Shown here: positions 1,887-9,831 of the stretch, one piece after another | How positions within the stretch are numbered: position 1 is the stretch's first letter | Layout: each line of letters starts with the position of its first letter | DNA from: Bacteroidales bacterium | Lineage (GTDB): Bacteria > Bacteroidota > Bacteroidia > Bacteroidales > Bacteroidaceae | Assembly (NCBI GenBank): GCA_022772475.1 | Contig: JALEZQ010000064.1 | Span: 33,419 to 97,418, forward strand | DNA: 64,000 nucleotides | Reading direction: 5' to 3' | Notes under the pieces: generated by a model | What the model was told of the DNA's origin: nothing | What the model saw: only the letters and a program-made list of their open reading frames with translations | The model's database searches: none | Translations under genes and position numbers: made by a program

Positions 1887-2672
1887 CTACTCTTTTATGA
1901 ACGCATTGCGCAGGATATCCAAATACACACGTATTTGTTCTTCCGTTCTACCTAATGCGTCTCTCAATGATTTGGAATTGGCAGACAGCTCTTCTTCTAT
2001 ACGCAGGACGAAGGATTGTACAGTGTCCCAAACAGACGGAACCACTGCCAGCGTCTCAGAGAAATCTGCTCCAGCAATCAGTTTCAGCACGTCATTGCGG
2101 TGTTTCTTGATGTCCTTGGTGTTTACCATGCGTCCAGCCTCGTGTTCTGCCAGCAGATTGAGGTAAGCCTTAGTCTTTAGGCAAACAAGGGCATAATGGG
2201 AGGCATAACGCAGACCGTTCTCCACGTAGCTATTGTTCACGGTCAGTTCATAGTATTCTTCGTCCATCATGATGGCACTGAGGCTTGACACGTCTTCTCC
2301 TGTAGGTATCGGCTCCAAATGGAAGCCTGAAGGTTCGCCAAGCAAGTCGGAATGTCTTGAAAGCAGTTCTATTTTGGCAGGGAATCCCGGTTTGCCGTTC
2401 TCAAAGCGGTACAGCGTGTACGCCGGTGCCATGTTTTCCCCACGTTTGCGCTTACCATTCCTGTATTGCCCTTCCTTTACGAAATTCCAAAAGGCATTTG
2501 CAAACTCCGCCGTCATCTTTTCAACCACCAGTATCATGTCAATATCGACCGTGGCGCGTGGTTCCACCATGGTCTTGCTCAGTACAGCATCACAGGCTGT
2601 ACCACCTATAATCACATAGTTTTCAGAAAACGCGCTGAATGCCTCCCTAAACTTTTCTATTCCCTTAACCAT
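1887..2672 (-). CDS. nucleotidyltransferase-fold protein, AbiEii-like
   Basis: N-terminal IIGGTACDAVL followed by VDIDMIL (GG..DxD nucleotidyltransferase signature); overlaps the upstream wHTH-like gene. Confidence 0.65.
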   Translation of the reverse strand: MVKGIEKFREAFSAFSENYVIIGGTACDAVLSKTMVEPRATVDIDMILVVEKMTAEFANAFWNFVKEGQYRNGKRKRGENMAPAYTLYRFENGKPGFPAKIELLSRHSDLLGEPSGFHLEPIPTGEDVSSLSAIMMDEEYYELTVNNSYVENGLRYASHYALVCLKTKAYLNLLAEHEAGRMVNTKDIKKHRNDVLKLIAGADFSETLAVVPSVWDTVQSFVLRIEEELSANSKSLRDALGRTEEQIRVYLDILRNAFIKE

Positions 2673-3613
2673 AATCTGTCAGTCATTAATTCAATTTCTT
2701 TTTCCACCCTCGGGTCATCGTCTTCCCTCAATGAGAGGACAAGAGAAAGGCGGTCCACAAAACCATCTTCCTTGTCTATGACCGGGGGATATTTCCACAC
2801 TTCTATTCTGGTGCCACCGTCCAAAATGTTCAGTTCCGGCAGCGCCCCCGCCTCTTTGGATTTTCTAAACTCTGGACCATAGATGACCTTTGTCTGCATC
2901 CGTTCCGGATTGAGAGCTGAATAATGCGACAGGGCATTGATGCCTCCAACCACACCCTGAGCCACTTCTTCGTCAGCGTACCATACGGATTTGATGGGAT
3001 TTTGCATCAACGGTTCTGCCTCTTTCCAGAGTCGTTTACCTTCTTTCTCAAAGTGTATGCGCTTCGTCCCGTTGTTGTTCACTTCCACATCAACCAAATA
3101 TGTGGCTTTCAATTGACGGACTGCACGACTGATGGCAAGATAGTTGTAGGGCAACAGCTTTTCCATGTCCGACAAGGTACAGCCTTCCAAACTCTTGCGC
3201 TGAAGATGATACAACAGCAGGTATTGGGCGGCAGGTTGCAGCCGTTCCTTGTTGATTGGTGCACTGTCTCTTGCATTGATAAGGAAGAACGGCAGAAAGA
3301 CATACTTGCCGCTCACCACAAAATACACGCCTTGCTCAATATACCTGTTACGCTCGTATGAAGCCAGTTGGTCGAACATTATCACGCATGGCTTCCCCAA
3401 GACCGCAGACAGGTTTGATGTCAGCTTCTTGCATTGCACGGGCGTGAGGTGTACAGCCGTTTTGCTTTCCAAAGCCACAAACTGAATCCCCATATACTCT
3501 ATGTCATAGAACGAAAACATAAGCAGTGCATCGGTAAACACACCTTTCAGTTCACTCCGATTCTTAAGTCGCATCGGAATTGCTTTGCCTGCTATAACTA
3601 CAGTCTTGTTCAT
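2657..3613 (-). CDS. winged-helix protein, possible AbiEi-like partner
   Basis: 318 aa, internal MarR/wHTH-like stretch (LSDMEKLLPYNYLAISRAVRQLKATYLVDVEVNNNGTKRIHFEKEGKRLW); overlaps the nucleotidyltransferase gene by 16 bp. Confidence 0.55.
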   Translation of the reverse strand: MNKTVVIAGKAIPMRLKNRSELKGVFTDALLMFSFYDIEYMGIQFVALESKTAVHLTPVQCKKLTSNLSAVLGKPCVIMFDQLASYERNRYIEQGVYFVVSGKYVFLPFFLINARDSAPINKERLQPAAQYLLLYHLQRKSLEGCTLSDMEKLLPYNYLAISRAVRQLKATYLVDVEVNNNGTKRIHFEKEGKRLWKEAEPLMQNPIKSVWYADEEVAQGVVGGINALSHYSALNPERMQTKVIYGPEFRKSKEAGALPELNILDGGTRIEVWKYPPVIDKEDGFVDRLSLVLSLREDDDPRVEKEIELMTDRLWLRE

Positions 3614-4672: not shown

Positions 4673-4999
4673 ATGAACAAAAATGGAAAGAACGAAGAGC
4701 TCCAGTCAAGAAGAGAGTTCTTCAAGAAGGCGGCTAAACGTGCGCTGCCTATCTTAGGTGCTATCGTGCTGGCAAACGCTCCAGTTATTGCAAATGCTGC
4801 TGAGGAAGCTCCGATGGGATGTAATTACTTTTGCTCCGGAGGATGTAGTGGCAGTTGCGGCCGTTCATGCTCCTACGGTTGTTATGGAGGGTGTAAAGGA
4901 GGGTGTAGTGGAGCATGCTCCTATACATGTCAAAATACTTGTAAAGGTACTTGCCAAGGAAGATGTAGCGGAGGTTGTTCTAGTATGAATTCTTACTAA
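4673..4999 (+). CDS. CXXX-repeat RiPP-like precursor peptide with Tat signal sequence
   Basis: 108 aa; twin-arginine motif SRREFFKK, hydrophobic segment ALPILGAIVLANAPVIANA, then 14 Cys spaced exactly 4 residues apart (CNYFCSGGCSGSC...CSGGC). Confidence 0.9.
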   Translation: MNKNGKNEELQSRREFFKKAAKRALPILGAIVLANAPVIANAAEEAPMGCNYFCSGGCSGSCGRSCSYGCYGGCKGGCSGACSYTCQNTCKGTCQGRCSGGCSSMNSY

Positions 5000-6244
5000 A
5001 TGATTAATCAGGTAAAATTATGGCAATCTGGGGAAGCTAAGACCATAACATTCATTGTTACCAAGGACTGCCAGCTTGCCTGTAAATATTGCTACCTCGT
5101 AGGTAAAAACTCAAAAGAGAAAATGACCTGGGAGGTAGCAAAACAATTTGTTGACTACATCCTTACCCATGAGGATGATATGAAAGAGAAAAGCGTAATT
5201 TGGGATTTTATCGGTGGCGAACCATTCCTCGAAATCGATTTGATTGACAAAATATGCGATTATATAAAGACCGAGATGTTCAGACGTAATCATCATTGGT
5301 TTAATTCTTACCGTATCTCTTTCTCCACTAATGGCATAAACTACCATACAAAGCAAGTACAGGAGTTTATAAAGAAAAACCGAGAGCATCTCAGCATTGG
5401 CATAACAATTGATGGCACACAGAAGAAGCACGACCTAAACCGGATATGGAAAACTCCGGATATGGAACAGGGCATCATGCCCAAGCCTGAAGAAGAACGT
5501 GGCTCTTATGCTGATGTCGTGAAGAATATCCCGCTATGGCTTCAACAGTTTCCCGATGGAGCAACGAAGGTAACTATCAGCAGTGCAGACATTCCATATA
5601 TAAAAGAAAGCGTACTCCACCTTTATTCTCTTGGCATACATGAAGTGAATATCAATTGTGTGTTTGAAGATGTATGGCGTGAGGGTGATGACATGCTGTT
5701 TGAAGAACAATTGCTACAGCTTGCTGATGTCATTATTGAGGGTGGATATTATAATGATTATGCATGTTCCTTCTTTTCGGAAAGTATTGGCAAACCTCTT
5801 GACAGAATACTTGAAAACCAGAACTGGTGTGGCGCTGGCAAAATGTTGTCTATAGACGCCGCTGGTAATTTCTACCCCTGTACGCGATTCGCCCAATACT
5901 CTCTTCGCGATAAAAAGGCATGGATTATAGGTAATGTGCATGACGGTATCGACAAGAACAAATTACGCCCGTTCCTTACTCTTGACCGTTGCACGCAATC
6001 AAGACAAGAATGCATCGACTGCGAGGTGGCAAGTGGTTGTGCATGGTGCCAAGGCGAGAACTACGATGCAGCAGACACGCCAACGATTAACCAGCGCGCA
6101 GTGGCAATCTGTAAGATGCACAAGGCGAGAGTAAGGGCCAACAACTATTATTGGAACAAGCTGTACCGTAAACTCGAACTGGAAGGCATCACCAAAGAGG
6201 AGGCAAAAGAATACGTCAAAGAGTCGAATCCTAAAAACTGCTGA
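5000..6244 (+). CDS. radical SAM/SPASM peptide maturase (CXXX-repeat target type)
   Basis: CX3CX2C motif CQLACKYC; SPASM-type cysteines CGAGKMLSIDAAGNFYPC and CIDCEVASGCAWC; start codon directly abuts precursor stop (TAAATG). Confidence 0.92.
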   Translation: MINQVKLWQSGEAKTITFIVTKDCQLACKYCYLVGKNSKEKMTWEVAKQFVDYILTHEDDMKEKSVIWDFIGGEPFLEIDLIDKICDYIKTEMFRRNHHWFNSYRISFSTNGINYHTKQVQEFIKKNREHLSIGITIDGTQKKHDLNRIWKTPDMEQGIMPKPEEERGSYADVVKNIPLWLQQFPDGATKVTISSADIPYIKESVLHLYSLGIHEVNINCVFEDVWREGDDMLFEEQLLQLADVIIEGGYYNDYACSFFSESIGKPLDRILENQNWCGAGKMLSIDAAGNFYPCTRFAQYSLRDKKAWIIGNVHDGIDKNKLRPFLTLDRCTQSRQECIDCEVASGCAWCQGENYDAADTPTINQRAVAICKMHKARVRANNYYWNKLYRKLELEGITKEEAKEYVKESNPKNC

Positions 6245-6246
6245 TC

Positions 6247-7251
6247 ATGCTACAATACCTCGTTATATTACTGGATGATACGTCAACCTCATTCTGCCAT
6301 TACGACAATAGCCATATCAAGAGCAAACTCATCAGCCTTGAAGACTTGAAGGCCGGCATATTCTATGCCATGAAGGAAAACCTTATGATTCAGTTCGTAT
6401 ATCCTGATTACAAACTGCCGCAGGAGTACAAGGACGTTATCAACACGATTGACCACAGCGTCATTGTGTCTGCCTTATGCGAAGATTCTGAACTAAAAGA
6501 CAAGGCGGATGTGGTTGTGATGAACGGCTGGGATAGTTTAGGAAAGGTAAATTTCACTACGGATACGTCTTACGTTCTTCGCACGACCAAATCCGACCTA
6601 TTTGACAAATATCAGTCCCTCACGCACGCCCTTGGAAATGTGAGACGATTGAACATTGTCTTCACAGACGTGGAAAGCTTTACAGAGGAGGATTTTGACA
6701 AGTACAAAAATGTATTATCTTCGCTTTCCGAAGAAATTGAGAAACTGTATGTGGAGGGCAAATCTCCCCAGTTGAACCTGCTCACCGACCGCATGATGCT
6801 CGACAAGATGAACAACTGCAATGCCGGCTGGGAGAACATTACGCTCGCTCCCGATGGGAAGTTCTATGTATGTCCCGCGTTCTATCATGCACAGCAGGCA
6901 GACGGCAGCGAGCATTCTATCGGCGACGTTTGTAAAAAAGGCTATAGCATAGGCAGCTTGAAATCCGGATTGGAAATCAAAAATCCTCAGTTATATCACC
7001 TTGACCACGCAAAACTATGCCGCAATTGCGACGCCTTCCAATGCAAAAGGTGTATATGGCTCAACAGAAAGACTACCTATGAAGTCTGTACGCCAAGTCA
7101 TGAGCAGTGCGTGTTGGCCCATCTTGAGCGTAATGCCGGCAGGCTGTTGCTGAACAATATCCGCAAGCATGGAAGTTTTCTGCCCGAGAAAGATGAAATC
7201 AAAGAAATCGATTATTTAGACCCGTTTGAAAAGAAAGAAGAATATGAGTAA
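6247..7251 (+). CDS. SPASM-like CXXX-repeat peptide maturase partner without radical SAM core motif
   Basis: CNAGWENITLAPDGKFYVC and CRNCDAFQCKRC resemble SPASM; no CX3CX2C in the N-terminal half. Confidence 0.8.
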   Translation: MLQYLVILLDDTSTSFCHYDNSHIKSKLISLEDLKAGIFYAMKENLMIQFVYPDYKLPQEYKDVINTIDHSVIVSALCEDSELKDKADVVVMNGWDSLGKVNFTTDTSYVLRTTKSDLFDKYQSLTHALGNVRRLNIVFTDVESFTEEDFDKYKNVLSSLSEEIEKLYVEGKSPQLNLLTDRMMLDKMNNCNAGWENITLAPDGKFYVCPAFYHAQQADGSEHSIGDVCKKGYSIGSLKSGLEIKNPQLYHLDHAKLCRNCDAFQCKRCIWLNRKTTYEVCTPSHEQCVLAHLERNAGRLLLNNIRKHGSFLPEKDEIKEIDYLDPFEKKEEYE

Positions 7252-7525
7252 CCTAACATTAGTCGGTCAAGTGACCGTAGAAGAAAAGAATGAGATTCAA
7301 ACATTGTTTGAACGTCGTAACGGACTGAACGAGTTGGCAAAGATTGTATCAGCTGACAATTCCGAACTGTATGAAAAATTGGTCAAGGACATGGGTGAGA
7401 CCGGCACTAAATTCCAAAACTGGTGGGATATGATGGCCTATAAGTACCAGTGGGAATCGGCAGAGAATGGCAATTGGCAAATAGACTTCGATACCTGTGA
7501 AATCTTCTTAGTAACAGAACAATGA
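7244..7525 (+). CDS. small accessory protein of the CXXX-repeat peptide modification locus
   Basis: In-frame ATG at 7244 overlaps the upstream stop (ATGAGTAA); located between maturase genes and tatA. Confidence 0.7.
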
Positions 7526-7785
7526 TTATACAACCTCTGTTTATCGGTACTACCGAACTGCTCCTTATCGGGGGCATTGCTTTACTGCTATTTGGCGGCA
7601 AGAAACTGCCTGAAATGATGCGTGGTCTCGGACAGGGCGTCCGAGAATTCAAGAAGGGCGCAAATGAAGACAAGGAAGAAGACAAGGAAGAAGATACCCA
7701 TGAGGATGTATCAGAAAACACTTCGCCTCACCAGAAGGACTCATCGACATCTGACGTAAAGACCATCCATGGCAAAGAAAAGTGA
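7522..7785 (+). CDS. tatA: TatA/E family twin-arginine translocase subunit
   Basis: Short N-terminal TM ([37 protein letters not shown]) with FGxKKLPE motif, acidic C-terminus; ATGA overlap with the preceding gene. Confidence 0.93.
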
Positions 7786-8554
7786 CCCGGACCTATTGAC
7801 ATTCGGCGGACATTTGGAAGTGCTCCGCCGAATGCTTTTCCGAATCATAATCGTTACAGGTGCGATTGCTGTTGTGATATTCTGTTTCAAGGATACCACA
7901 TGGAAGATTCTGCTCGATCCAAGCGAGTGCTCGTTTGTGACCTATCGATGGATTGAAAATATGGCGGCTGCCTTTGGCATTGATTTTCGCTTTGATGACT
8001 TTTCTGTAGATTTGATTGCCACCGACTTGTCCAGCCAGTTCATGACACACATCACAACCTCCATCTATCTTGGCTTGCTCGGCGCATCACCATACATTCT
8101 ATACGAACTGTTTCGGTTTATCTCGCCTGCATTATACGAGAAGGAAAAGAAGTACTCCGTACAGGTGGTCGTGATTATCTATCTTCTTTTCATCATGGGG
8201 GTCCTGATGAGTTACTATATCCTGTTTCCCATCTCGTTTAGATTCTTGGGAACGTATAGTGTGGCGGAAAAGATTCACAGCACCATCACGCTCGATTCCT
8301 ATATCTCGACCTTCACCACACTTACGCTCTTAATGGGCGTGACGTTTCAACTCCCTGTAATAGCGTTTACACTTACCAAACTCGGATTCATTTCATCTGA
8401 AATGCTGGCAAAGTATCGCAAGCACTCTTTCCTTCTCATCATGCTTGTGGCCGCCATCATCACTCCACCGGATTTGATGACGCTTGTTTTAGTCACCATT
8501 CCCTTATACTTATTGTACGAGATAAGTATTCGCGTGGCCAAATGGGTGGAATGA
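7769..8554 (+). CDS. tatC: Tat translocase subunit TatC
   Basis: N-terminal [16 protein letters not shown], multiple TM segments, [10 protein letters not shown] and [21 protein letters not shown]; overlaps tatA. Confidence 0.95.
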
Positions 8555-8766: not shown

Positions 8767-9831
8767 ATGATGAAGTTTATGCTCGCTATACCGGCCACAT
8801 TGATGGTCAGCGCGCTCGCTGCATGCAACGGGCAGAAAGAAAACAATGGGACCAACGAACCTGACACTTGCAACGTGGATACGCTGGAATATCCTGCCTT
8901 CGTGATAGACGCTCAACGGGAAGACGTGAAGGTATGCGTCTCTGACGACGAGCGCCTTCGATTGTATTGCTGGTATCCCGATCCCGAATGGGGCGGGGGC
9001 GGCAACTGTCCCGAGCCTATCGTGATGGCGCAGTATCGCACGAAGAGCGGCGAGGTGAGGACGCGCAAAATAAGCGCTACCGCAATAGACCGGGCATGGG
9101 TCCGGATGCTACATACCATCACGAAGGACGACGGCCACACGTATTATCTGGCCGTGCGCAGTATGCGCGCCTCCAGCAACGACGGGTACACTCGGGTCAA
9201 TGCCTTCGCCATCGAGGGCGACTCGCTGATGGACGTGGCCGCCGTGGACGGCAGTGCGGACATCGACAACGGCAGTCTGCCGGACATCAACTATAACATC
9301 AGCGACTGGTACTTCAATACGAACGGCGAAGGCTACGAATGGATGTATGCGTATGACAAAGCGCAACGAAACCTCTACATCCCTGTCACTGAGGGGGAAC
9401 GGTGGCCGCAGATAATGACGGACCGCTACATGCTGTACCATTTCGACGGCAAGCGGTTTGTCAACAAGGGCGAGGTGGCGCACCGCGGACTGCACCCCTC
9501 GTTGCAGCAGTATAAGCGGTTGCGTTATTTCTTCCGGACCGCAGACTACACCCTGCGCGTGGACGAAATGGCGGACGGCACGCTGCGTTACGCGCAGTGG
9601 AAACAGCCTGCCACGCTCTCCCAAGAACCGGAGTTGGTCATCATGGGAGGAACGTGCAAAACCGTTGACTATCAAGATGTCTATACATTCCGGCACGACG
9701 GCGCAGCCTATGTAGTAGGCTACAGCGAGACGCACCATGAGGCAGATGGAGACATGACGCAACACGAGTATTTTATAATAAAAAAGGACGGCAAAGAGTT
9801 GGTCAAGCAAGAGCGTATAGAAGCACCATAA
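8767..9831 (+). CDS. hypothetical lipoprotein
   Basis: Signal peptide with lipobox-like VSALAAC; 354 aa ORF. Confidence 0.8.
   Translation: MMKFMLAIPATLMVSALAACNGQKENNGTNEPDTCNVDTLEYPAFVIDAQREDVKVCVSDDERLRLYCWYPDPEWGGGGNCPEPIVMAQYRTKSGEVRTRKISATAIDRAWVRMLHTITKDDGHTYYLAVRSMRASSNDGYTRVNAFAIEGDSLMDVAAVDGSADIDNGSLPDINYNISDWYFNTNGEGYEWMYAYDKAQRNLYIPVTEGERWPQIMTDRYMLYHFDGKRFVNKGEVAHRGLHPSLQQYKRLRYFFRTADYTLRVDEMADGTLRYAQWKQPATLSQEPELVIMGGTCKTVDYQDVYTFRHDGAAYVVGYSETHHEADGDMTQHEYFIIKKDGKELVKQERIEAP

Follow-up and report, generated by a model that had tools for sequence, protein, structure and literature searches.

We propose that a 108-residue open reading frame in a 64,000-nucleotide stretch of Bacteroidales DNA (the window) encodes the precursor of a radical SAM-modified cysteine-ladder peptide, which would be matured in the cytosol and exported in folded form by the twin-arginine (Tat) pathway. 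We put the probability of this reading at roughly 0.7. The initial annotation of this DNA had described 14 cysteines at an exact four-residue period, and both the ORF and its period hold true. The ORF consists of MNKNGKNEELQSRREFFKKAAKRALPILGAIVLANAPVIANAAEEAPMG, followed by the 14 cysteines at three-residue intervals (residues 50, 54, ... 102, with 13 consecutive CX3C gaps) and a short SSMNSY tail. Random placement of 14 cysteines in a 53-residue stretch would give such a perfect ladder with a probability of 1/C(51,12) = 6e-12, and a pattern search of the same genome for CX3 ladders of five cysteines returned this gene only. The annotation had also taken the ORF for a precursor with an exported core, an idea that our analysis supports. 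What it missed was the Tat signal itself, the TatA and TatC genes of the operon, and the named NCBIfam system of which the locus is part.

Table 1. Coordinates of the precursor, its parts and the other genes of the operon in the window.
Feature	Position	Strand	Evidence
CXXX-ladder precursor, 108 aa	4673..4999	+	TIGR04117 51.7 bits (cut-off 50); TIGR04114 24 bits (cut-off 20)
Precursor leader, twin-arginine signal peptide	4673..4798	+	From sequence; RRx[FL][LF] common in related ladder ORFs
Ladder core, 14 Cys at an exact period of four residues	4820..4978	+	Sequence, codon and orthologue comparison
Radical SAM/SPASM maturase TIGR04115	5000..6244	+	631 bits, E 5e-190 (cut-off 350)
TIGR04119 'CXXX repeat peptide maturase'	6247..7251	+	221 bits (cut-off 150)
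TIGR04116 CXXX-repeat system protein, 93 aa	7244..7525	+	100 bits (cut-off 50)
TatA	7522..7785	+	TIGR01411 65.9 bits; PF02416 62 bits
TatC, CXXX-operon lineage	7769..8554	+	TIGR00945 159 bits; own-genome search; tree

The locus belongs to the CXXX-repeat radical SAM system of NCBIfam. The five genes that come next, encoding TIGR04115, TIGR04119, TIGR04116, TatA and TatC, abut or overlap, forming with the precursor a six-gene operon, upstream of which Rfam found no RNA element. All components score above the curated cut-offs, the precursor only narrowly in the case of TIGR04117; as an entry in the catalogue, the system was therefore already known. We found no paper that uses the TIGR04114-04117/04119 accessions or the term 'CXXX repeat' in the literature searched, which includes few subscription journals; as far as we could check, the link to Tat, the pseudo-radical SAM nature of TIGR04119 and the fusion of the radical SAM enzyme described below are additions of this work. 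Throughout almost all of 80 related loci from other genomes (nearly all Bacteroidota by record name), the order precursor(s)-radical SAM-TIGR04119-TIGR04116-TatA-TatC recurs, with one to five precursors upstream of the radical SAM gene and, often, further precursors after TIGR04119. Within the family to which the window belongs, the system was found in 36 of 301 sampled genomes.

The TIGR04115 enzyme carries its CX3CX2C motif at C24, C28 and C31 (nt 5069-5092). These residues are invariant in 79 sequences, as are C256, C277, C294, C338, C341, C347, C350 and C371, and the enzyme has the full SPASM-type cysteine set. Its only sequence relative in the PDB is CteB (5wgg/5why, E 5e-18), and the next relative in NCBIfam is the PapB family NF047865, where it reaches 181 bits against a cut-off of 340. 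Of the eight cysteines that are invariant in the TIGR04119 protein, seven are SPASM-like; the protein has no CX3CX2C motif, and C17 is the only invariant cysteine in its N-terminal half. The best fold match of its structural model (pLDDT 89.7) is CteB 5why (E 7e-10). We read it as a pseudo-radical SAM partner that would have kept the radical SAM/SPASM fold and auxiliary-cluster cysteines and lost the SAM cluster. The model of TIGR04116 (pLDDT 93.5) shows a two-helix hairpin plus strands and matches no fold in the PDB at E<=0.001, a result that does not support its being a known RiPP recognition element.

The initial annotation had suggested comparing cysteine spacing with repeat number among homologous precursors. 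We did so for 147 distinct precursors chosen by an RR motif and at least three CX3C gaps, a selection that somewhat inflates the gap statistic: 2342 of 2742 inter-cysteine gaps are exactly 4, and the share per precursor averages 87%, compared with 11% after shuffling. The number of cysteines ranges from 7 to 62. Spacing is conserved across precursors, then, and repeat number is not, as that annotation required. Random pairs of precursors share a mean identity of 50% in their leaders and of 9% in the non-cysteine columns of their cores; with a conserved leader, a variable core and an adjoining modifying enzyme, the locus has the general make-up of a RiPP system. In the spacers, X1 is typically Ser, Lys or Thr, X2 is Gly in 36% of cases and X3 is Ser, Gly or Thr in 70%; at no spacer position of the 147 precursors is there a fixed Asp, Glu or Thr acceptor. 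The proposal that the cysteines line one face of a helix is weakened by this dominance of Gly, Ser and Thr, and also by PapB, which does not need X3 spacing (PMC9413430). A lipobox is present in about 40 of the 147 precursors, often followed by acidic residues that recall the Bacteroidetes lipoprotein export signal K-(D/E)2 (mBio 2016, PMC5080379), and the precursors without one, that of the window included, look like signal-peptidase-I substrates. Some ladder precursors are very long (L035:3942-5225, L036:454-1818, L050:4544-5968 and L051:4666-5934, where L numbers denote loci). In that of L035, ladder stretches flank a Fib_succ_major-like domain, a Pfam match below the cut-off; a similar domain was recognised in L036 by eye only, and L051 has no Pfam match.

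A different arrangement comes from Anaerococcus prevotii, whose plasmid pAPRE01 (NC_013164.1; L162:204-2390), typed as conjugative, encodes a natural fusion of TIGR04115 and TIGR04119 of 728 aa. The TIGR04119 protein matches the C-terminal half of this fusion by BLASTP with an E value of 3e-26. A 56-aa ORF beside it carries CKLMCVHTCRYSC, a minimal ladder of four cysteines with no Tat signal; close by are a short TIGR04116-like ORF (by eye), ABC transporters and a class III lanthipeptide synthetase. This relative, with ABC transporters nearby and no Tat signal, counts against our reading in that Tat is not essential to the modification, and the conserved core of the system comprises the ladder, the radical SAM enzyme, TIGR04119 and TIGR04116. 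From these sequences, the export route of CXXX systems appears to be exchangeable. No fusion of this type was found among viral contigs. MT837480, a match in a phage collection (81% identity), is an unannotated contig of faecal origin, 6.8 kb long, and we do not count it as a sign of phage carriage.

For the modification and its timing, the export by the operon's Tat, the cleavage and the location of the product, we infer the following course. The precursor would be held in the cytosol while its CX3 ladder is modified by TIGR04115, aided by TIGR04119 and TIGR04116. At about even odds, this modification would be thioether cross-linking of the cysteines to neighbouring small residues, the likeliest chemistry by analogy with CteB and PapB, radical SAM relatives that both make thioethers. 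Against it stands the lack of a fixed acceptor in the spacers comparable to the Asp on which PapB acts. Metal binding is possible as well and would not exclude thioethers. The finished, rigid product would then leave through the Tat translocase that the operon encodes. On the periplasmic side, a core of ~66 residues (AEEAPMGC...) would be released by signal peptidase I, whereas about one relative in four would have its product anchored as a lipoprotein by the lipobox. Tat exports folded proteins, and a dedicated TatA/TatC pair would make sense for a cross-linked peptide that Sec could not thread.

A different question is what such a peptide would do. It might be a secreted antimicrobial or signalling peptide, such as a bacteriocin-like sactipeptide or ranthipeptide, acting against neighbours, a role that would be compatible with the maturation and export proposed above. 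Many cysteine-rich radical SAM RiPPs are antimicrobial, the core sequences are highly variable, and the relative on the Anaerococcus plasmid has a lanthipeptide synthetase as well as ABC transporters in its neighbourhood. However, the related loci contain no recurring immunity gene, dedicated protease or outer-membrane exporter, the precursors with a lipobox should be anchored at the membrane or surface, the number of cysteines reaches 62, and some precursors carry the sub-threshold Fib_succ_major-like domain. We consider it unlikely, while granting it more weight than any of the other alternatives.

Somewhat less probable still is a metallothionein-like ladder that binds metal, is loaded in the cytosol and is exported by Tat, with the radical SAM modification being minor or aiding the insertion of a cluster or metal. 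The core has 14 cysteines in 66 residues, and Tat classically exports proteins whose metal is loaded before they leave the cytosol. Moreover, the cysteine-rich bufferins, modified by MNIO enzymes, chelate copper and also bear signal peptides (PMC12452194). Against this, a full-length, active-type radical SAM/SPASM enzyme and a second SPASM protein attend the ladder throughout the loci, clustering of the flanking genes of related loci revealed no recurrent metal transporter or sensor family, and in the 147 precursors the spacers have almost no His and few Asp or Glu.

In our preferred reading, a modified peptide exported by Tat, the leader is a genuine Tat signal. The leader has the sequence features of a Tat substrate (RRxF[FL], hydrophobic stretch and signal peptidase site, by eye and by pattern), with S-R-R-E-F-F at residues 12-17, a hydrophobic stretch and an ANA signal-peptidase-I-like site after residue 42. 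The AxA-type site of the initial annotation is thus real, although the twin-arginine signal that ends there had escaped notice. Among 148 ladder ORFs of the related loci picked regardless of their N-terminus, RRx[FL][LF] precedes the ladder in 140; the eight others include at least two that are truncated where their contig stops and one that seems to be a chance ORF. It is quite improbable that the leader is instead an ordinary RiPP leader or a Sec signal resembling Tat, with tatA and tatC present by chance or for another cargo. In favour of that alternative, the generic Tat-signal profile TIGR01409, a weak profile of 29 positions, matches nothing in the window's genome even at E <= 10, this leader included, a result that says little about the leader, and many relatives have an unlinked tatC. 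Nevertheless, SRRxFF, a hydrophobic stretch and an ANA-like site or lipobox occur in almost all precursors, and the TatC proteins of these operons form a lineage of their own: 58 of 64 operon-linked TatCs fall in one clade (support 99/95), 21 unlinked TatCs, those of the window's genus included, form a separate clade (support 100/98), and the linked/unlinked label requires three changes on the tree.

The distribution of tatC also speaks against that alternative. Among the 301 family genomes, 35 of the 36 with the CXXX system carry a tatC, as do 201 of the other 265 (Fisher P 0.002), and two or more copies are found in 22 of the former and 9 of the latter (P 4e-17), both P values being optimistic given that species are not independent. 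Counting against our reading, some CXXX operons are not accompanied by tatA/tatC and are presumably served by the housekeeping Tat. Every genome searched whose locus lacks a downstream tatC has one elsewhere, and ten CXXX genomes, most of whose loci as examined show no tatC close to the operon, all carry the gene. In eight of nine loci in which no tatC was seen downstream, at least one precursor has a lipobox, a small sample and a pattern noticed after the fact. The genome that holds the window is 87% complete, and a search of it found no TatC besides that of the operon. A search of that genome by the RRxF[FL]K pattern alone, which other signal types would escape, gave five matches, of which the precursor alone lies in an evident gene as its N-terminal signal; another match, a 53-aa ORF in L175, is of ambiguous status. 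The computations show the Tat-type leader, the separate TatC lineage and the co-occurrence with Tat, as well as the operon and the conservation of the ladder. We hold with somewhat better than even confidence the fuller picture of a peptide whose maturation is completed in the cytosol and which its own Tat exports in the folded state, with an apparently single-cargo TatA/TatC in this genome, a TatC lineage that co-travelled with the system across Bacteroidota, a catalytically dead radical SAM partner that takes part in maturation and, in some relatives, a lipoprotein that may be exposed at the surface.

The initial annotation had judged that the ladder is not a fresh minisatellite, and the codons bear this out. 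The cysteine codons are mixed, with nine TGT and five TGC, and the nearest orthologue (in locus L068) keeps 14 of 14 cysteines, of which seven have switched between the two codons. Its spacers, in contrast, agree at 30 of 45 residues and differ at 15. As the cysteines are retained despite codon switches while the spacers change, the ladder is conserved by protein-level selection. That the periodicity is a young, functionless tandem repeat has next to no chance: TRF detects only a weak 12-bp period in two short stretches (two to three copies, 81-83% match), the synonymous changes at cysteine codons with all cysteines kept refute it, the spacing conserved over 147 precursors argues against it, and we rejected the minisatellite on the TRF result and the L068 comparison.

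Other genes were seen around these operons. In the window, TatC is followed by a gene for a 354-aa probable lipoprotein (8767-9831, + strand; by eye), which we rejected as an operon member, as it has no relative in the related loci and no Pfam match. On the other side, a 261-aa and a 318-aa gene overlap each other at 1887-3613 on the - strand, the first nucleotidyltransferase-like by eye; neither has a Pfam or PADLOC match. Small CXXC-rich secreted or lipoprotein ORFs lie inside the operon at L029:8176-8667, L040:8781-9368, L063:8163-8531 and L074:8477-8770, those of L029 and L040 with weak DnaJ central-domain matches below the cut-off. Secreted bacterial SH3-domain proteins are found just upstream of or inside the operon in a cluster of 12 loci (for example, L026:4767-5627 and L080:10274-11614). 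Tandem pairs of TIGR04115 genes, each pair within a single genome, occur at G302:C94:70540-72809 and G196:C80:84782-87006, and L066:9129-9972 holds a partial second TIGR04119-TIGR04116-TatA copy inside the operon, followed by another precursor. Finally, L025, L054 and L073 come from metagenome-assembled genomes named Clostridium, Clostridia or Ruminococcus and contain Bacteroidota-type operons; these contigs are probably misbinned.

Although NCBIfam has a name for the CXXX-repeat system, no product of it is known, and we are aware of none from this family that has been purified. The link to Tat offers a concrete, testable mechanism, in which the peptide is modified and then exported folded, and a Tat machine with perhaps one cargo would be useful for studying the specificity of TatC for its signals. 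A ladder of 7 to 62 cysteines with no fixed acceptor suggests either repetitive radical SAM chemistry outside the CX3D and SCIFF rules or a new cysteine scaffold.

Among known systems, the bufferins and other MNIO peptides and the lipidated 'DAG-RiPPs' also have cysteine-containing precursors with a leader that is an export signal, of the signal peptidase I or lipoprotein type (PMC12452194, PMC12636315), but their enzyme is an MNIO rather than a radical SAM protein and their export is by Sec rather than Tat. Even Sec signals have been termed highly unusual in RiPP precursors (PMC12452194), and the word 'Tat' is absent from the texts of both papers. We found no RiPP precursor with a Tat signal in the literature searched, in which subscription journals are few; for a peptide of this kind to have a Tat exporter to itself would be uncommon. 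PapA/PapB, of the freyrasin type, resembles the present system in having a radical SAM/SPASM relative, many cysteines and an X3 spacing rule, and in CX3D/E motifs PapB connects the Cys with the Asp or Glu (PMC9413430). Here, in contrast, the residue four positions on is the next cysteine, and the spacers, dominated by Ser, Gly, Thr and Lys, have no fixed acid. Given the score below the PapB cut-off and the departure from the CX3D rule, we would not, on sequence grounds, file the locus as a ranthipeptide or sactipeptide. The likeness to SCIFF/CteB rests on CteB being the sole PDB sequence relative of the radical SAM enzyme and the best fold match of TIGR04119. However, the similarity starts ~95 residues into the CteB chain, the N-terminal region of CteB having no counterpart, and, compared with SCIFF, the substrate described here has a different cysteine pattern and a Tat leader.
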